A stretch of 64,000 bases of DNA, taken from contig NZ_CP114901.1 in assembly GCF_027497175.1 (NCBI RefSeq), forward strand, positions 6,431,828 to 6,495,827, written 5' to 3'. Both the position numbers and the translations under genes were made by a program. Shown piece after piece: positions 1,294 through 13,786 of this stretch (position 1 is its first letter; every line of letters begins with the position of its first letter). The DNA comes from Verrucosispora sp. WMMD573 (lineage in GTDB: Bacteria; Actinomycetota; Actinomycetes; Mycobacteriales; Micromonosporaceae). The notes below the pieces were generated by a model. That model did no database searches and was not told the DNA's origin. It was given only the letters and a program-made list of their open reading frames with translations.

Positions 1294-1796
1294 TCGTCGG
1301 CCTCAGCCTGGGGCACCGCACCCTGCGTGAGGCCGACCACTGGCTCACCGAGCAGGTGACAGGGTTCGGGCCGGATCTGGTCGCCTGCACCCACCTGGTC
1401 GCCGAGCCGTACCCGCATGTGGCGCTCAGTGTGGCCGGCACGGCGGCCGAGCGGCTCGCGGAGCTGGCGGTCGCCCCGCCCGAGCTACGGACCGCAGCGG
1501 CCCGGGCAGCCGGTGAGCACGCCGCCCGCCGCTCCGGCCGCGCGGTGCGCTACCCGGGCGCGGACCGGATGGTCGGCACCCTCACCGTCGCCGAACTGCT
1601 CGCCGCCGGGGCGATCGAGCGGGTGGTGGCGCTGGGCGGGACACCGGTGACCCCGGACGCGCCGGTACACACCAGGGACTTCGTCCGGCCACAGTGGCAG
1701 GACGGCGAGCTGGTCCTGGTCACCATGCCGCACCACGCGGGCGGCCTGGCCCCGTTCGAGGTGCCCGACCCGACGCCCTGCTGCGCCGACCACTGA
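1290..1796 (+). CDS. Unknown protein coupled to the PHP gene
   Basis: 168 residues starting at a GTG inside the stop of the upstream gene (GTGA overlap). An upstream in-frame ATG at 1242 lies inside the PHP gene and is less likely. It begins VIVGLSLGHRTLREADHW and ends PTPCCADH. It has alternating hydrophobic stretches and an Ala/Glu-rich middle, with no signal peptide or membrane segment. I do not recognise the family. The Cys-Cys-Ala-Asp-His tail could bind metal, but that is only a guess. The overlap implies a role related to the PHP protein. It is followed by a strong hairpin. Confidence 0.65.
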   Translation: MIVGLSLGHRTLREADHWLTEQVTGFGPDLVACTHLVAEPYPHVALSVAGTAAERLAELAVAPPELRTAAARAAGEHAARRSGRAVRYPGADRMVGTLTVAELLAAGAIERVVALGGTPVTPDAPVHTRDFVRPQWQDGELVLVTMPHHAGGLAPFEVPDPTPCCADH

Positions 1797-1846
1797 GGTG
1801 ATCCTCCGACCGTGGCGCCCGGCACCGGCGCGACGCGGGAGGGCAA

Positions 1847-1882
1847 CGGGCCGGGTGCGCGTACCGACGCGCACCCGGCCCG
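1847..1882. terminator. Hairpin between convergent genes
   Basis: A perfect 16-bp inverted repeat (1847-1862 with 1867-1882) encloses a 4-base ACCG loop. It lies after the plus-strand unknown gene and just past the stop of the minus-strand small gene, so it could terminate both. There is no U-tract, which is usual for actinobacterial terminators. Confidence 0.7.
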
Positions 1883-1893
1883 CGCGCGGACCG

Positions 1894-2121
1894 TCAGCTA
1901 CGCCGGAAGGCGTAGCGGCGGACCTGGCCGGTCCGCTGGCCGCGTCCGACACCGGAGGTGCCGGTGGCCGGTGGCCCCGCCATGGGGGCGGCCGGTCGCC
2001 CGGCCGGCCGGGTGGGCACCGGCGCGATCGCGACGTCGCCCAGGTTCGCCGGTGTGACGGCGGCGAGTTCCGCCGAGTGGCGGTCGGGACGGGACTTGCC
2101 TGAGCTGCGCTTGGCGGGCAT
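1894..2121 (-). CDS. Small basic protein, unknown
   Basis: 75 residues. The ATG at 2121 is preceded by GAGGAGG about 5 bases upstream, a near-ideal ribosome site, and this is the main support. It starts MPAKRSSGKSRPDRHSAELA, is rich in Arg, Pro, Ala and Gly, and ends RRYAFRRS. It looks disordered, with no membrane segment. I do not recognise the family. It could bind nucleic acid, but this is inference from composition only. It is flanked by the 1847-1882 hairpin. Confidence 0.5.
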   Translation of the reverse strand: MPAKRSSGKSRPDRHSAELAAVTPANLGDVAIAPVPTRPAGRPAAPMAGPPATGTSGVGRGQRTGQVRRYAFRRS

Positions 2122-2517
2122 CTGTGCCTCCTCGCTCGGCCGGCAACCTGCGGACGGTCGGCCGACCAGATGAGGACCGCCACCAGGGCGGTCGGGGACG
2201 GTTCGGACTGCTGCCCGGGACCGGCCACGGAGGACGCCACCGCCGACGGCGGGTGGACACGCGGACGCCCGGGAGCACACGGGTCGCGGCACGACAGCGG
2301 CGAACCCGGCTCAGGTAAGGGGCGTCAGTAGCGCATGCCCGCACGTTATCGGCCGGGCGGGGCCGGTGCATCCGAATTAACGTCACCGGTCCGCGCGAGC
2401 GATCGGGGTGCGCTACGCGACCACCTGATGACCAGCGGTGGGGGGACGACGCGCACCGGACCCATGCCGCGATACCGTCGCAGCACTACAGGTAGACGGC
2501 GGAAGGTGGCGACGAGG
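2122..2517. other. Intergenic region upstream of gnd
   Basis: About 396 bases without a convincing gene. Open frames run through it on both strands but lack family features. It must hold the divergent promoters for the small gene at 1894-2121 and for gnd. The only base-composition shift is a short AT-richer stretch near 2371-2380. I could not assign -35 or -10 boxes. Confidence 0.4.
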
Positions 2518-3963
2518 ATGGCGGATCGGGCTACGGCGCAGATCGGTGTGACGGGACTGGCGGTGATGGGTCGCAACCTGGCCCGCAACCTGGCCCGCAA
2601 CGGGTTCACCGTGGCGTTGCACAACCGCTCGCCGGAGCGGACCCGGTCGCTCGTGGCGGAGCACGGCGACGAGGGCACCTTCGTCCCGACGGAGTCCCTG
2701 GCGGACTTCGTCGCCGCGCTGGAGCGCCCCCGCGCGGTGATCATCATGGTCAAGGCGGGGGGACCCACCGACGCGGTGATCGACGAGTTGGTGCCGCTGC
2801 TGGAAGCGGGCGACATCATCATCGACTGCGGCAACGCGCACTTCGCCGACACCCGTCGCCGGGAGGAGACGCTGCGGGCCAAGGGCCTGCACTTCGTCGG
2901 CACCGGTGTCTCCGGTGGCGAGGAGGGGGCGCTGTGGGGGCCGAGCATCATGCCGGGCGGCTCGGCCGAGTCGTACCGCAAGCTCGGACCGATCTTCGAG
3001 AAGATCGCCGCGCAGGTCGAGGGCGTGCCCTGCTGCCAGCACGTCGGGCCGGACGGTGCCGGGCACTTCGTCAAGATGGTCCACAACGGCATCGAGTACG
3101 CCGACATGCAGCTCATCGCCGAGGCGTACGACCTGCTGCGGGCCGGGCTGGGCGCGGAGCCGGCGGAGATCGCGCAGATCTTCCGGGAGTGGAACTCCGG
3201 CGAGCTGGAGTCCTTCCTGATCGAGATCACCGCCGACGTGCTGGCGCACACCGACGCCGCCACCGGGCGGGCGTTCGTGGACGTGGTGCAGGACCGGGCC
3301 GAGCAGAAGGGCACCGGCCGGTGGACCGTCCAGATCGCCCTCGACCTGGGCATCCCGATCACCGGCATCGCCGAGGCGACCTTCGCCCGGTCGCTGTCGG
3401 GGCACGTGGGTCAGCGCGAGGCCGCGCTGCGGGCCTTCCCCGAGGCCGGCGAGAAGTGGCAGGTCAGCGACCGCGAGGCATTCATCGAGGACGTACGGCG
3501 CGCGCTGCTGGCCTCGAAGATCGTCGCGTACGCCCAGGGCTTCGACCAGATCCGCGCCGGCAGCGCCGAGTACGACTGGGGCATCGACCTGGGCGGCACG
3601 GCGACGATCTGGCGCGGCGGCTGCATCATCCGGGCCCGGTTCCTGGACCGCATCAAGCAGGCGTACGACGAGCAGCCGGAGCTGCCCACCCTGCTGGTCG
3701 CACCGTGGTTCGCCGACACCGTGCGCGACGGCGTGCCGAGCTGGCGGCGGGTGGTGGCCGAGGCGGCCCGGGCGGGCGTACCGGCGCCCGCGTTCGCCTC
3801 GTCGCTGGCGTACTTCGACGCGCTGCGGGCGGACCGGCTGCCGGCCGCACTGATCCAGGGACTGCGCGACAACTTCGGCGCGCACACCTACCGCCGCGTC
3901 GACCGGGACGGCTCGTTCCACACCCTCTGGGCCACCCCCGACCGCGCCGAGGTCGAGGCCTGA
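2518..3963 (+). CDS. gnd: 6-phosphogluconate dehydrogenase, decarboxylating
   Basis: 481 residues. It oxidises 6-phosphogluconate to ribulose 5-phosphate and CO2 in the oxidative pentose phosphate pathway in the cytoplasm. The N-terminal Rossmann domain shows ITGLAVMG-type glycine-rich binding (here GVTGLAVMGRNLARN) followed by HNRSPERT, whose Arg-Ser is expected for NADP+. The catalytic lysine is in FVKMVHNGIEYADM (Lys186). The all-alpha C-terminal domain reaches the expected length for the roughly 480-residue class. I start at the ATG at 2518; frames open further upstream give a non-homologous extension. It is followed by a large hairpin at 3979-4030. Confidence 0.95.
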   Translation: MADRATAQIGVTGLAVMGRNLARNLARNGFTVALHNRSPERTRSLVAEHGDEGTFVPTESLADFVAALERPRAVIIMVKAGGPTDAVIDELVPLLEAGDIIIDCGNAHFADTRRREETLRAKGLHFVGTGVSGGEEGALWGPSIMPGGSAESYRKLGPIFEKIAAQVEGVPCCQHVGPDGAGHFVKMVHNGIEYADMQLIAEAYDLLRAGLGAEPAEIAQIFREWNSGELESFLIEITADVLAHTDAATGRAFVDVVQDRAEQKGTGRWTVQIALDLGIPITGIAEATFARSLSGHVGQREAALRAFPEAGEKWQVSDREAFIEDVRRALLASKIVAYAQGFDQIRAGSAEYDWGIDLGGTATIWRGGCIIRARFLDRIKQAYDEQPELPTLLVAPWFADTVRDGVPSWRRVVAEAARAGVPAPAFASSLAYFDALRADRLPAALIQGLRDNFGAHTYRRVDRDGSFHTLWATPDRAEVEA

Positions 3964-3978
3964 CCCGCAAGCCCCCGA

Positions 3979-4030
3979 AATACGGCATCTCGCGGTATCC
4001 CTCAGCAGGGATACCGCGAGATGCCGTATT
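3979..4030. terminator. 24-bp perfect palindrome, bidirectional terminator candidate
   Basis: 3979-4002 and 4007-4030 are exact reverse complements around a 4-base CAGC loop. The element starts 16 bases after the gnd stop and ends 27 bases before the stop of the convergent small gene. The length and perfection exceed a usual terminator. Bidirectional termination is the simplest role; a mobile palindromic element is possible. Confidence 0.7.
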
Positions 4031-4057
4031 GCTGGGCTACCGGTCGCACCGGTCGCG

Positions 4058-4243
4058 TCAGAAGAAGCGGCGGCGCTTTGCCTGCCGAGGGCGGATCAGG
4101 TCGGCGCCCTTGTTGAGCAGTCGAGTGGCCCGGTTGGGGCCACGGCGGGACTCCAACGTGTGGCTCAGCTTCCGGGCTCCGGCGGCGGCGACCGGTACCG
4201 CGATGGCCATCACCGCCCACTGCCCGATGCGCTTGCGGATCAT
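4058..4243 (-). CDS. Small membrane-associated protein, unknown
   Basis: 61 residues from an ATG preceded by GGAGG about 8 bases upstream. The N-terminus MIRKRIGQWAVMAIAVPVAA is a short basic stretch followed by a hydrophobic segment, then a basic tail ending KRRRFF. It looks like a single-pass or peripheral membrane protein. No family recognised. It lies just downstream of uppS on the same strand, separated by about 90 bases. Confidence 0.55.
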   Translation of the reverse strand: MIRKRIGQWAVMAIAVPVAAAGARKLSHTLESRRGPNRATRLLNKGADLIRPRQAKRRRFF

Positions 4244-4332
4244 ATGGGTTCACCTCCGTCAGTGGCTGCTGCCGGCGGTGATACCCAGTGTGGCCGCCGG
4301 GTATGCGCTCAGGCGGCCGGGAGCACCGACGC

Positions 4333-5169
4333 TCAGCCGGCCGGCACCGTGGCTGTCGAGGTGGTCGGAGCCACCGGGTTGGGCAGTGCGCCACCGAACC
4401 GCCGGTCGCGCTGGGCGTACAACTCGCAGGCGTACCACAGGTGCCGGCGGTCGAAGTCCGGCCAGAGCGTGTCCAGGAAGATCAGCTCGGCGTACGCGCT
4501 CTGCCAGAGCAGGAAGTTCGAGGTCCGCTGCTCGCCGGAGGGTCGCAGGAACAGGTCCACCTCGGGCACCTCAGGGTGATAGAGATACCGCTGGACCGTC
4601 TTCTCGGTGACCTTGGCCGGATCGAGCCGGCCGGCGGCCACCTCCCGGGCGATCGCGGCGGCCGCGTCGGCGATCTCCGCCTGCCCGCCGTAGTTCACGC
4701 AGAACTGAAGGGTCAGCGTCGAGTTGCCGCGGGACATCTCCTCGGCGGTCTGCAACTCGCTGATGACGCTCTTCCACAGCCGCCCGGCCCGACCGGACCA
4801 CACCACCCGCACCCCGAGGTCGACCAGCTGGTCCCGGCGGCGGCGGATGACATCCCGGTTGAAGCCCATCAGGAACCGCACCTCATCGGGTGAGCGTCGC
4901 CAGTTCTCGGTCGAGAAGGCGTACGCCGACAGGTAAGGAATACCCAACTCGATGGCGCCCTCGACGGTGTCGAAGAGGGAGAACTCCCCCGCCTCGTGGC
5001 CCTTGGTGCGCGCCAGGCCGCGTTCCTTGGCCCACCTGCCGTTGCCGTCCATCACCACGGCGACGTGGCGGGGCACCGCCCCCGGTGGCAGCGCCGGCGG
5101 TCGGGCCCCCGACGGATGCGGTGTCGGCGGCACCGGTTCGCGCCGCCCGGCCCTGGACGATCGGATCAC
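4333..5169 (-). CDS. uppS: Polyprenyl diphosphate synthase (cis-prenyltransferase)
   Basis: 278 residues. Condenses isopentenyl diphosphate onto an allylic primer in cis, making the C50/C55 carrier lipid for peptidoglycan and arabinogalactan-type polymers. The signature [14 protein letters not shown] begins near residue 35, with Asp41 as the catalytic metal ligand; [17 protein letters not shown] is the C-terminal IPP-binding motif. The first 34 residues are a Pro/Arg-rich extension. The start ATG overlaps the recO stop by 4 bases. The recO-uppS pairing matches the decaprenyl diphosphate synthase of mycobacteria rather than the short-chain paralogue; chain length is inferred. Confidence 0.92.
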
Positions 5170-9247: not shown

Positions 9248-9625
9248 TCATGCGGTCACCGTGCCGAGCACCGTGCCGTCCGGCCCGGCCACGTGCACCG
9301 GCGCGTCGGCGGCCAGGTCACGCACGGCCGCGTAGCCGGCACCGTCCAACGTGGACGCCTCGGTCACGACCACCGCGGCCTCCAACCGGGTGGCACCCGC
9401 CGCAGCCGCCGAGGCGACCGCCAGTTGCAGCGCGGTGATGGTCAGCGAGGGCAGCGACACGCTGGCCGCCGCATACGTCCGGCCGTCCTGATCCCGGACC
9501 GCGGCACCCTCCACGGCGCCCACCCGGCCCCGGGCACCCCGGGCGAGGATGACCAGCTTGCCGTCCTCGGCGCTCAATTCGGAGCCGGTGGACCGGACGG
9601 CCGGCACGGCGGGTGACTCAGGCAT
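9248..9625 (-). CDS. Cytidine deaminase-like protein without catalytic residues
   Basis: 125 residues from ATG 9625, overlapping the corC stop by 8 bases. Its place between corC and era matches the conserved small protein at this position in other actinobacteria (Rv2365c position in M. tuberculosis), often annotated as cytidine deaminase. The sequence has the alternating pattern of that fold (GRTYAAASVSLPSLTITALQ) but no Cys at all and only one His, so the zinc ligands HAE and PCxxC are absent. It is probably not an active deaminase. A role with Era or ribosome assembly is inferred only from context. Confidence 0.8.
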   Translation of the reverse strand: MPESPAVPAVRSTGSELSAEDGKLVILARGARGRVGAVEGAAVRDQDGRTYAAASVSLPSLTITALQLAVASAAAAGATRLEAAVVVTEASTLDGAGYAAVRDLAADAPVHVAGPDGTVLGTVTA

Positions 9626-11003
9626 CGGCGGGCTGCCTCTCCTCGGATTGGTCGGTGTCGGAACGGGACGCGGTCGGCGGGCCGCCCGGAGCGTCCTTCG
9701 TGTTGGTCGGCTCCACCCGGCGCACCAGCACCGTGTCGATCCGGTTGCGGCGACCCGTGGTGCCCTCGGCGACCAGGCGCAGGCCGGCCACCTCGACCCG
9801 CGCGCCCGGAATCGGCACCCGACCCAGGGCCTGGGCGAGCAGACCACCCACGGTCTCCACCTCGTCGTGCGGCAGCTCGGTGTCGAACAGCTCGCCGAGA
9901 TCCTCGACCGGCAGCCGTGCGGTGACCCGCACCGCACCGTCGGGCAACTGCTCGACAGGTGGGCGCTCGACGTCATACTCGTCGGTGATCTCCCCGACGA
10001 TCTCTTCGAGAATGTCCTCGATGGTGACCAGGCCGCCGGTGCCGCCGTACTCGTCGACCACGATGACCAGGTGGTTGCGGGCGGCCTGCATCTCCGACAG
10101 CAGATCGTCGACGGGCTTGGACTCGGGCACGAAGGTCGCCGGCCGCATCAGCTCGGCCACCGGCAGCTGACGATCCTCGACAGCCCCGCCCTGGGTACGC
10201 CGGATCAGGTCCTTGAGATACAGGATGCCGAGCACGTCGTCCACGCTCTCGCCGATCACCGGAATCCGGGAGAAGCCGGAGCGCAGGAACAGCGCGAGCG
10301 CCTGGGAGAGGTTCTTGCCCGACTCGATCCACACCATCTCGGTACGCGGCACCATCACCTCGCGGACGATGGTGTCGCCGAGCGCGAAGACCGAATGGAT
10401 CATCTGCCGCTCGCCGTGCTCCACCACGCCCCGCTGCTCGGCGAGGTCGACCAGCTCACGCAGCTCGACCTGGGTGGCGAACGGCCCCTCCCGAAAACCA
10501 CGGCCCGGCGTGACCGCGTTACCGATCAGGATCAGCAGGGAGGCCAGCGGGTTGAGCACCCGGCCCAGCCAGCGCACCAGCGGCGCGGCCGAACGGCCCA
10601 CCACGTACGCGTGCTGCCGGCCGAGAGTACGCGGACCCACGCCGACCACGACGAAGCTGACCACGGTCATCGCCCCGGCGGTGACCAGCGCCGCCCGCCA
10701 GCCGGCGCCGAAGGTGTCCACCGCCACCAGCGCCACCAGCGTGGTGGCGGTCAGCTCGGCGAGCAGCCGGAGCAGCAACAGGAGATTGAGATGCCGGACC
10801 ACGTCACCGGCGACCGTCTGAAGGGTGCGCGCGCCCCGGATCCCCTCTCGGGCCAGCTCGGCCGCCCGGGCCGGTGAGACCGCGGCCAGGGCGGCCTCGG
10901 TCATCGCGATCAGGCCGGCAAGCACCACCAGCCCGGCAGCGAACACGAGCAGTTGCAGGTCGGGTAGGCCAGTGGCGGCCGCGGCCAGCGGAGTGTCCAT
11001 CAC
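9618..11003 (-). CDS. CNNM/CorC-family membrane protein with CBS domains
   Basis: 461 residues. Three or four transmembrane helices in the first 170 residues form the DUF21/CNNM domain. Then come two CBS domains ([16 protein letters not shown] and later [20 protein letters not shown]) and a C-terminal CorC/HlyC transporter-associated domain (ADGLVRVTAR-type strand, here [19 protein letters not shown]). The family is linked to Mg2+ or Co2+ efflux; older names call it hemolysin. It overlaps ybeY by 4 bases at its start and the deaminase-like gene at its end. Confidence 0.9.
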
Positions 11004-11473
11004 CGGGAGCGGGCCGACCGCCAGCTCGCCAGCAACCGGGCCTGGAGACCGAACATCTCCCGCTCCTCCTCCGGCTCCGCATGGTCGTAGCCGAGCAGGT
11101 GCAGGACACCGTGCACGGTGAGCAGATGCAGCTCGTCGGCGGTGCGATGCCCGGCGGTGGCGGCCTGCTTCGCCGCCACCTCCGGACAGAGCACGATGTC
11201 GCCGAGCAGTGCGGGCTCACCACCGGCGGCGGCGGTCTCACCCGGCCCGTGGTCGACGCTGCCCTCGTCCATGGGAAAGGCCAGCACGTCGGTCGGACCG
11301 TCGCCGCCCATCCAGCGATGGTTCAGCTCGGTCATGTAGTCGATGTCGACAAGCAGCACGGAAAGCTCGGCGAGCGGGTTGACTCCCATCTCGTCGAGCG
11401 CATGCCGGGCGACGGCGAGCACGGCGTCGGTGTCGACCTCGGCACCGGACTCGTTGGCGATCTCGATGGACAA
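11000..11473 (-). CDS. ybeY: Endoribonuclease YbeY
   Basis: 157 residues. A zinc-dependent single-strand RNase for 16S rRNA 3' maturation and ribosome quality control. The metal site [11 protein letters not shown] gives the H-x3-H-x5-H signature near residue 118, and the upstream segment contains [20 protein letters not shown]. It follows phoH by 15 bases and overlaps corC by 4, giving the classic phoH-ybeY-corC-era order. Confidence 0.95.
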
Positions 11474-11488: not shown

Positions 11489-13603
11489 CTAGCGGCGCCG
11501 GCCGCCGCGGTTGCCCTGGGCGCTGCGCCCGGACACCGCGTGCACGCCCTGCGCCTGCTGGTTCTCGGCGTCCCACCGCGCGTACGCGTCGACGATCTCC
11601 CCGACCAACCGGTGACGCACCACGTCGGCGCTGGACAGCTGCGCGAAGTGCACGTCGTCGACCCCGGCCAGGATGTCCCGGACGACCCGCAGCCCGCTTG
11701 TCGTCCCACCGGGCAGGTCGACCTGGGTGACGTCGCCGGTGACTACGATCTTGGAGCCGAAGCCGAGCCGGGTGAGGAACATCTTCATCTGCTCGGGCGT
11801 GGTGTTCTGCGCCTCGTCGAGAATGATGAACGCGTCGTTGAGCGTGTTGTGCGTGACCAGGAAGTCATCGGTGACATACAGCGAATCCTCCGCCGCCACC
11901 TGGATGCACATCGTCTCCTGGACACCGGCGGGAACGATCGAGTCGATGAAACGCATCGGCCGGCCGCCGCCGCACTCCTCGTACCGCTGGCGCTTACGCG
12001 ACAACCGGAACGGCGGTACGCCCTCCGGCAAGCGGATCTCCACGACATAGGCGTCCGACCGGTGGGCGACCGGTCGACCGTTGGCCAGGCCAGGCTTGCG
12101 GCCCTCGGCCACTCGAACACGCCACGTCGCCACGCCACCGAGTGACTGGACCAGGTGGACGACATCGTCACGCAGTCGGGGAGAGGTCGTCGAGTACTGC
12201 ACCCGGCAGGTACGTCCGGCCTGCCCGCCGTCGGTGTCCAGCAGCCCCTGCAGGACGGCCAGGCGGACATCGACGCTGTTCTGGAGATAGACGGACGGGA
12301 CGAACTTGGTACCTGACTTCGTCCCGTCCAGCCCCAACTCGCGGAGCGCGACCGTCACCGGGTTCGCGACGATCACCCCGCCTAGCTGCCCCTTGGTGTG
12401 CCGGAGCACAAAGTCGTACTCGCTCTTGCGGTGCAGCTCGATGTCGACCAGATCGTCCTCGATCGCCCGGGCGAGCTCGGGGTCCGCCGTGGTGAACCCC
12501 GGCGTCGTCCGGCACGAGATCGACCCGTCACCGAGCAGCAGGCCGAGGACGTACGGATCGAGCGGAACGTCCTGCGGCTCCAACTGCACCGGAGCCACAA
12601 CCGGCAGTTCGTAACGGCGGATGTCACCCCGCCGCTCCTGCCCGATCATCTCCTGGGTCTCCAGCGTGCGCCGGCGACCACGCCGCTTGTCCTCGGGGGT
12701 GGCCACGGTCCAGAGGTGCTCACCGCAGCACAGGGTGGAGGCCCCGTCCTGCGTGGTCACCCGGTAGACCTGCTTGGGCCCTTGCGGGTAGATCCCGATC
12801 ACGGGGGTCGGCATGCCGTTCGAGCCGATCACCAGGTCGCCAACCTGGAGTGAGCCGAACCGCTTGAAGCCCTCCGGGGTCAGCACGCGGGCGTCGTACG
12901 GCTGCGCCCGACCCCTCATATATGCGAGGGGGGCGACCTCGATCGTGCCGGCGGCCATCAGCTTCGGGATGGTCTCCGGGTCGAGCATGTCGTGCAGGGC
13001 GTCGTAGAGCGGGCGCAGGTAGGGGTCGATCTTCTCGTTGAGCGTGCCCGGCAGGAAACCGAGTCGCTCCCCCGCCTCGACCGCCGGCCGGGTCAGGATG
13101 ATCCGGTTGATCTGCTTGGCCTGCAACGACTGCACCGCCTTGGCCATGGCGAGGTAGGTCTTGCCGGTACCCGCCGGGCCGATGCCGAAGACGATGGTGT
13201 GCCCGTCGATCGCGTCGACGTAGCGCTTCTGACCCAGCGTCTTGGGACGGATGGTGCGCCCGCGCCGGGAGAGGATGTTGAGGGTCAGGACCTCGGCGGG
13301 CCGCTCCGTGCCACCCTGTTCGAGCATGCCGACGGTACGCCGGACGGCATCTGTGGTCAGGGTCTCGCCTTTCTCGATGAGTTCGAGCAACTCGCTGAAG
13401 AGCCGCTCGGCGAGGGCGTTGTCGGCGGGAGCGCCGGTGATGGTGATCTCGTTGCCACGCACGTGCACGTCACTGTTCACCGAGCGCTCGACCAGTCGCA
13501 GGATCTCGTCACCCGCGCCGAGCAGGTTGACCATGATCTTCGAATCGGGAACCGTGATCCTGGTCTGCACCCGGGGCGGGCCGGGAGGTGGGGTGCCGGT
13601 CAT
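11489..13603 (-). CDS. PhoH-family ATPase interrupted by an intein
   Basis: 704 residues as translated; removing the intein leaves 350, the normal PhoH length. An N-terminal KH-like region precedes Walker A GPAGTGKT (residues 142-149). The sequence APLAYMRGR is interrupted after Arg232, and [14 protein letters not shown] (Walker B DEAQ) resumes at Thr587. PhoH proteins are P-loop ATPases linked to RNA metabolism, consistent with ybeY next door. Since the intein separates Walker A from Walker B, splicing should be needed for activity. The start is ATG 13603 ([15 protein letters not shown]); longer in-frame versions upstream look non-coding. The SD site is weak. Confidence 0.93.
11846..12907 (-). 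mobile_element. Class 3 intein with LAGLIDADG endonuclease in PhoH
   Basis: 354 residues in frame with PhoH. The first residue is Ala rather than Cys or Ser ([13 protein letters not shown], block A), so splicing cannot start by the standard N-S/N-O shift. Block B is [12 protein letters not shown] with Trp66 two residues after His64. Block F is [11 protein letters not shown] with Cys334. Block G is FLVTHN, and the first C-extein residue is Thr. Trp, Cys and Thr at these positions are the class 3 signature, where the block F Cys is the first nucleophile. Endonuclease motifs are [10 protein letters not shown] (Asp126) and [10 protein letters not shown] (Asp226), both with acidic residues kept, so homing may still be active. 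Confidence 0.93.
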
Positions 13604-13786
13604 AGGTCGGGCCCGAGGGCCCTGCGCCACCTGCTCTCGATCTCGGTGCCGGGCCCGTGGCACGGCGTGTGGACGTTGCCACCATCGTATCGGTTCAACG
13701 GCGGGGACACGCTGCCCATTTCCGCCGCTGTGACGCCCCGGCACCACCGGACAGAGCAGGGCATTCCACCCCGACGTACCGCCCGG

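Follow-up and report, generated by a model that had tools for sequence, protein, structure and literature searches.

Class 3 inteins are described, in the available parts of three papers (PMC5222942, PMC6195587 and PMC7664689), as carrying a Trp at position 12 of block B (B:12), a Cys at position 4 of block F (F:4) and a Thr at position 5 of block G (G:5), which form the Trp/Cys/Thr triplet (WCT), together with a Ser or Thr at the +1 position of the C-extein and no nucleophile at position 1 of the intein. Inteins of this class have been published in the PhoH protein of M. fortuitum (PhoHi, OBK00716) and M. xenopi (PhoHi, EID13626), according to the available sections of PMC6195587, and a PhoH intein of M. 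smegmatis is reported in those of PMC7360933. Here we analyzed a stretch of 64,000 nucleotides (hereafter the window) from Verrucosispora sp. WMMD573 (contig NZ_CP114901.1, positions 6,431,828 to 6,495,827 of the forward strand), in which the phoH gene is interrupted by an intein of 354 residues. With a probability of roughly 0.92, we interpret this element as a full-length intein of class 3 that carries a LAGLIDADG homing endonuclease, occupies a fixed PhoH site common across Actinomycetota and spreads horizontally by homing in addition to being inherited.

An intein at a fixed site in PhoH

The host protein is PhoH, as the Pfam family PF02562 matches the precursor in two stretches (E = 3.5e-89), one on each side of the insert, and a LAGLIDADG_3 match (PF14528) lies between them. 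The intein is inserted after precursor residue 232, that is, between the Walker A motif (residues 142–149) and the Walker B motif (residues 592–599). A first-pass annotation, made from the letters of the window, had placed an intein at 11846..12907 in a PhoH protein split between these two motifs and encoded beside ybeY; our analysis agrees with it on each point, and on the coordinates to the base. When the intein is excised in silico, MRGR is joined to TLNDAF, and the intein-free PhoH alleles with which a comparison had been proposed show this same junction seamlessly.

Among 118 loci examined, 114 contain both halves of PhoH, the other four being a PhoH paralogue, a weak match, a viral contig and a filler. 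After L001 and L003, two additional fragments of the genome from which the window comes, were set aside, the remaining 112 loci comprise 89 occupied and 23 empty sites; many species came from two collections, and the 89 occupied loci represent 68 distinct copies of the intein. The N-extein ends with MRGR in all 89 occupied loci, and the residues that follow the intein are TLND in 86, TIND in two and PLND in one. The 23 empty loci have zero bases between the PhoH halves. One intein-bearing phoH gene (L081, from G249) has a single in-frame TGA; no stop codon is found between its extein ends, so the TGA lies outside the intein.

In the genus sample, 38 of 151 genomes carry the intein at the same junction, in an open frame without a stop codon. 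The remaining 113 genomes are empty and seamless, and the search for empty insertion sites in relatives, which the first-pass annotation had put forward, was thus successful. A degenerate pattern for the empty junction is matched exactly by 96 of the empty genomes and by none of the 38 occupied ones; the 17 empty genomes that fail it were read individually, and all are seamless with small residue changes just past the junction. At least 42 of 298 genomes in the order sample contain the intein (40 full-span matches, and two partial ones that are shortened inteins at the site). Furthermore, 15 of 396 genomes in the phylum sample give a full-length match at E < 1e-100, of which 14 read as insertions in PhoH at the MRGR junction and the remaining locus is incomplete. 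A chance origin is excluded, because the same element is found stop-free at the same junction throughout the occupied genomes of the genus and its splicing residues are identical in all distinct copies.

Class 3 signature of the intein

Every sequence feature of class 3 is present in the window intein, namely Ala1, Trp66, Cys334, Thr352 and Thr(+1), and His64 occupies position 10 of block B, two residues before Trp66. Ala1, His64, Trp66, Cys334, Thr352, His353 and Asn354 are invariant in 68 of 68 distinct PhoH intein copies, whereas the +1 residue is Thr in 67 and Pro in one. The copy with Pro (L072, from G152) reads THN/PLND, which leaves no nucleophile at +1 while the other splicing residues are kept; to judge from this junction, its normal splicing looks impossible. 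The same Pro is found in P0047, which is probably from the same genome as L072. Among the 120 best-matching of 5748 database relatives, the Trp and His are conserved in all 120 and the Cys and Thr in 119, the sole exception being P0012, whose C-terminal end is broken; position 1 is Ser in 14 of these 120, and the +1 residue is Thr in 114, Ser in five and Pro in one. The triplet is also kept in 27 of 27 rows of hand-picked viral and other relatives.

The first-pass annotation had called class 3 from Ala1, the block B Trp, the block F Cys, the terminal His-Asn and the +1 Thr, all of which are in place, but it had taken the +1 Thr for the T of the triplet. That residue is Thr352 (G:5, the T of THN), and the +1 Thr is a separate feature in the available text of PMC5222942 and PMC6195587; because both are present, the class call stands. 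The alignment with class 3 inteins that it had proposed puts Trp66 and Cys334 in register with class 3 structures, block F weakly. In the comparison with PDB sequences, the N-terminal part of the intein matches 6riz (E = 6.1e-13), with Trp66 on the engineered Trp of 6riz, and Cys334 and THN line up with its engineered Cys and THN at a second-domain score near zero. A profile of 18 rows also retrieves MchDnaB1 and DnaBi1, in which Trp66, His64 and Cys334 are in register, with the same weakness in block F. In addition, the Hint fold of the predicted model is close to that of class 3 structures. One domain occupies most rows of the structure-match list, and families absent from the list are not thereby excluded.

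Several observations weigh against this assignment. Taken alone, the C-terminal splicing part of the intein matches PDB sequences weakly, with second-domain scores of 0.0 and -1.2, and blocks F and G are therefore placed with the help of the model and of their conservation among the relatives. A model of the intein alone is poor, with a mean predicted local distance difference test score (pLDDT) of 52.6, and was not used; in the precursor model, residues 571–587, which hold block G, have a pLDDT below 50. Taken together, sequence, register, the fold of the predicted model and the relatives support class 3 membership.

Selection and decay of the endonuclease

Asp127 and Asp226 are both present in the window intein, as the first-pass annotation had noted, and they align with the motifs of PI-SceI, as in a double-motif LAGLIDADG endonuclease. 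Both residues are kept in 35 of 38 distinct Micromonospora copies. Within Micromonospora, the exteins have a median ratio of nonsynonymous to synonymous substitution rates (dN/dS) of 0.094, compared with 0.105 in the splicing part and 0.209 in the endonuclease part of the intein. A catalytic Asp is lost in six of the 68 distinct copies (L024, L028, L029, L083, L084 and L092), all of which retain the splicing residues, and some of these copies have long branches or shortened domains. The dN/dS values, together with Asp losses in copies that keep their splicing residues, point to an endonuclease that is mostly under selection yet repeatedly decays, as a homing cycle predicts. The inteins of L083 and L084, with 295 and 305 residues, have partly deleted endonucleases and full-length sisters (L078 and L079); judged from their sequences, they are mini-inteins in the making.

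The window copy itself speaks less clearly for an active enzyme. It lacks three residues right after G228 (in DTDGG) that are present in all 67 other distinct copies and that read PVV in M. lutea (L005), and it is the only row with no residues at this position past motif 2 in a protein alignment of 121 rows. This deletion may mark a failing endonuclease, and the endonuclease activity of the window copy is in doubt because of it.

Probable horizontal spread and vertical inheritance

Near hosts differ in occupancy, as in M. haikouensis, where L019 is occupied and L095 is empty, and this patchy spread in close relatives suggests that the intein moves between genomes. On the host-gene tree at least 14 changes of occupancy are required, all of them forced by well-supported branches, although, of the 113 empty genomes, the tree took in 29 (12 hand-chosen and the 17 pattern failures) and its change counts do not come from a fair sample. 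Tested against the intein data, the host-gene tree is rejected at a log-likelihood (lnL) difference of 329, and the host-gene data reject the intein tree with one of 394. By comparison, in a control the PhoH exteins and ybeY/corC reject each other's trees by 35 and 82 lnL units and the intein tree by 257 and 164, and the two host-gene trees share 19 of 32 splits with each other, as against 8 and 12 with the intein tree. Three of the copies with a lost endonuclease Asp (L024, L028 and L029) were left out of these tests of tree conflict. Furthermore, inteins from a different genus within the same family group in a separate clade, and a tree that keeps the family together is rejected by the approximately unbiased (AU) test (p = 1e-4). 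Isoptericola, which lies outside the family, has inteins 75% identical to that of the window and exteins 78% identical, and Micromonospora sp. HM5-17 has an intein 75% identical and an extein 91% identical.

Two results tell against transfer as the whole explanation. Occupied genomes group together on the host tree (14 changes compared with a shuffled mean of 22.1, and 0 of 500 shuffles as low), which indicates that vertical inheritance also plays a part. In addition, neither host-gene set accepts the tree of the other (AU p = 0.017 and 1e-4), and given this mutual conflict, recombination at the locus explains part of the tree conflict. Horizontal transfer is still the natural reading of the tree conflict and the distribution, and the combination of sporadic presence, tree conflict and Asp loss with splicing residues kept is consistent with a homing parasite.

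Changes in the empty alleles were compared as well. Over positions +1 to +4, 18 of the 113 empty genus genomes but none of the 38 occupied ones have an altered residue (Fisher p = 0.007), the changed junctions (L159–L175 and L100) being TLSD, TLNE, TLNS, SLND and SLNS. As a sign of resistance, these variants are a lead only: 13 of the 18 belong to one clade, the tree needs just five changes, and by our arithmetic the chance that five or six origins all fall in empty alleles is about 0.2, given that about 75% of the genomes are empty. Outside the genus, two occupied copies have TIND and the occupied locus L134 has TLNE, so TLNE is no general bar to the intein. A co-conversion footprint was likewise considered for the rare codons GCA, TAT, ATG and AGG that flank the window intein, and it was rejected, as AGG and GCA also occur in empty alleles of near kin. 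The broader picture, in which the whole homing cycle, stage by stage, would be on view at one site within one genus (intact copies, copies without a catalytic Asp that retain the splicing residues, empty susceptible alleles, and changed empty alleles some of which are possibly immune or unfit for splicing) and in which the window copy would be starting to decay, is in our view rather unlikely.

Proposed mechanism and alternative explanations

The analysis shows directly that the intein is present, where its boundaries lie, which residues it has and in what register, how these are conserved, how the element is distributed and that the trees conflict; splicing, the order of its steps, homing and the inactivity of the precursor are what we infer for the window intein. 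By analogy with class 3 biochemistry, a less common chemistry of intein splicing, Cys334 would attack the bond between Arg(–1) and Ala1 to form the class 3 branched thioester, after which the N-extein would be transferred to Thr(+1). Asn354, aided by His353, would cyclize, and an acyl shift would link MRGR to TLNDAF, yielding a PhoH of 350 residues and a free intein of 354 residues. Before splicing, the precursor PhoH would be expected to have no ATPase activity, since its Walker A and Walker B motifs are separated. By cutting empty phoH alleles, the endonuclease domain would spread the intein through homing, and the persistence of the element would reflect horizontal spread into empty sites and vertical inheritance rather than a benefit needed by all hosts.

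If the intein spliced along the class 2 route, its +1 Thr would attack the N-terminal junction directly and Cys334 would not be the first nucleophile. Class 2 inteins are also described without a position-1 nucleophile in the available part of PMC5222942, and Ala1 fits both classes; however, such a route can hardly be expected where the triplet and the block B His are invariant across the PhoH copies and where inteins of demonstrated class 3 (6bs8 and DnaBi1) are among the best matches by structure and by sequence. It is also improbable that the intein is defunct, with splicing lost or the endonuclease dead in the window copy and drift maintaining it. The deletion unique to this copy, the Asp losses in other copies and the Pro at +1 in the relative L072 would agree with such a state, whereas the intact splicing residues and open frame in the window, the low dN/dS of the splicing part across the genus and a PhoH that is intact on both sides, and useful only with splicing, argue for a working element.

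The suggestion in the first-pass annotation that splicing could act as a switch on RNA quality control finds no support here, as the intein is missing from the 113 empty genomes of the genus and the function of E. coli YbeZ is called unknown in the available part of PMC5101352, where a two-hybrid interaction is described between this PhoH-family protein and YbeY, beside which it is encoded. Regulation of PhoH/YbeY by a splicing switch could be pictured as redox control through Cys61 (block B position 7) and Cys334. Splicing of the M. smegmatis class 3 DnaBi1 is halted by oxidation through a Cys48–Cys118 disulfide (available part of PMC6195587), 59 of 68 copies retain Cys61, a possible redox partner of Cys334, and slow splicing would limit PhoH if the precursor is inactive as expected. 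However, the Cys48 residue of DnaBi1 falls in the interval from block A to block B and not at block B position 7, and this position is Cys in 4 of 13 viral inteins and Ser or Thr in 9 of 68 PhoH copies. Since the intein is absent from most of the genus genomes, there is also no genus-wide need for it, and we assign little probability to a switch of this kind. The block B Cys (CxxH) as a PhoH-specific mark was ruled out by the same viral inteins, and no PhoH-specific sensor was found among the intein sequence features compared. We thus retain the interpretation of a class 3 intein that spreads by homing and inheritance.

Gene context

The features of the locus are collected in Table 1. The start of phoH at 13603 is supported by the alignment of relatives from the same position, and an in-frame GTG upstream of it, at 13747, is a possible alternative start. 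On the downstream side, an Era-like GTPase with a KH domain is encoded beyond the CNNM/CBS/CorC gene, past a short stretch without a Pfam match. A beta-lactamase-family gene (PF00144; 13787-15175, minus strand) lies directly upstream of phoH, followed further upstream by a HIT gene and an RNA-methyltransferase gene (PF04452). Elsewhere in the window's own genome (C1), seven further LAGLIDADG_3 matches occur in five open frames of 915–1768 residues (1433839-1435638, 1492231, 3012764, 3037786-3040338 and 3375034); this genome probably holds several other inteins.

Table 1. Coordinates of phoH, its intein and the adjoining genes in the window
Feature	Position	Strand	Remarks
phoH precursor	11489..13603	-	704 residues from the ATG at 13603; spliced product expected to have 350 residues
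N-extein, PhoH residues 1-232, ending in APLAYMRGR	12908..13603	-	
Walker A, GPAGTGKT, precursor residues 142-149	13157..13180	-	
Class 3 intein, 354 residues, A1 to N354	11846..12907	-	
Trp66, block B position 12 (W of WCT)	12710..12712	-	
LAGLIDADG homing endonuclease domain, approximately intein residues 106-299	12011..12592	-	limits set by us from PF14528 and the PI-SceI alignment
Asp127, LAGLIDADG motif 1 (LGLLLGDG)	12527..12529	-	
Asp226, LAGLIDADG motif 2 (LQGLLDTDG)	12230..12232	-	
Cys334, block F position 4 (C of WCT)	11906..11908	-	predicted first nucleophile
Thr352-His353-Asn354, block G positions 5-7	11846..11854	-	Thr352 is the T of WCT
C-extein	11489..11845	-	first residue is the +1 Thr
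Walker B, FIILDEAQ, precursor residues 592-599	11807..11830	-	
ybeY, endoribonuclease, next gene downstream of phoH	11000..11473	-	PF02130
CNNM/CBS/CorC_HlyC protein	9618..11003	-	overlaps ybeY

Comparison with known inteins

The nearest named inteins, from M. lutea and Verrucosispora sediminis, are 96% identical to that of the window. Compared by the parts of their published descriptions that are available, the PhoH inteins of M. fortuitum and M. xenopi share both the host protein and the class 3 signature with the window intein, and that of M. smegmatis shares the host protein. A mycobacterial copy in our set (L090) is inserted at the same junction, MRGR/TLND, and is about 60% identical to the window intein, with a Ser at block B position 7 where the window intein has a Cys; its named Mycolicibacterium relatives are frequent among the best 120 of the 5748 database matches. 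The window intein is thus a new member of a known family of PhoH class 3 inteins, of a kind already published for mycobacteria. No Micromonospora PhoH intein was found in the open-licence literature, a search that left subscription papers and intein databases outside its scope.

Beyond PhoH, M. smegmatis DnaBi1 and M. chimaera DnaB1 (6bs8, 6riy and 6rix) share the triplet, the block B His and the Hint fold with the window intein, and DnaBi1 also has Ala at position 1. Unlike the window intein, both are mini-inteins in DnaB with a Ser at +1, and block B position 7 of DnaBi1 is Asp instead of Cys. Phage inteins in the Phrappuccino terminase, a Bixzunavirus helicase and the SNF2 and DnaB helicases of jumbo phages are full-length, 36–43% identical, and carry the same triplet and an endonuclease, whereas by annotation these class 3-type inteins reside in other host proteins. 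A single distant relative, of 26% identity, was found in viral contigs. Among 40 listed of 714 phage records, one bears a PhoH label, which did not hold. As a candidate phage donor, the GX15bay protein L157 (MK557849.1, coding sequence 1526-4348) was rejected: its intein is about 37–38% identical, but the protein has no Pfam PhoH domain, and its PhoH label probably derives from the intein. PI-SceI is a class 1 intein with class 1 chemistry and a host protein other than PhoH; by comparison, its two LAGLIDADG motifs both align with the window intein (E = 8.6e-6 by sequence and 2.1e-9 by profile).

The find itself is ordinary, and its value lies in the system, a common, fast-turning-over class 3 intein in cultured soil actinomycetes beside empty alleles from close relatives. 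In Micromonospora phoH, homing and loss of the intein, decay of its endonuclease and possible resistance at the target site become testable. The inteins that this system offers are also full-length members of class 3, unlike the mini-inteins of the class 3 structures with which we compared them (6bs8, 6rix and 6riy).
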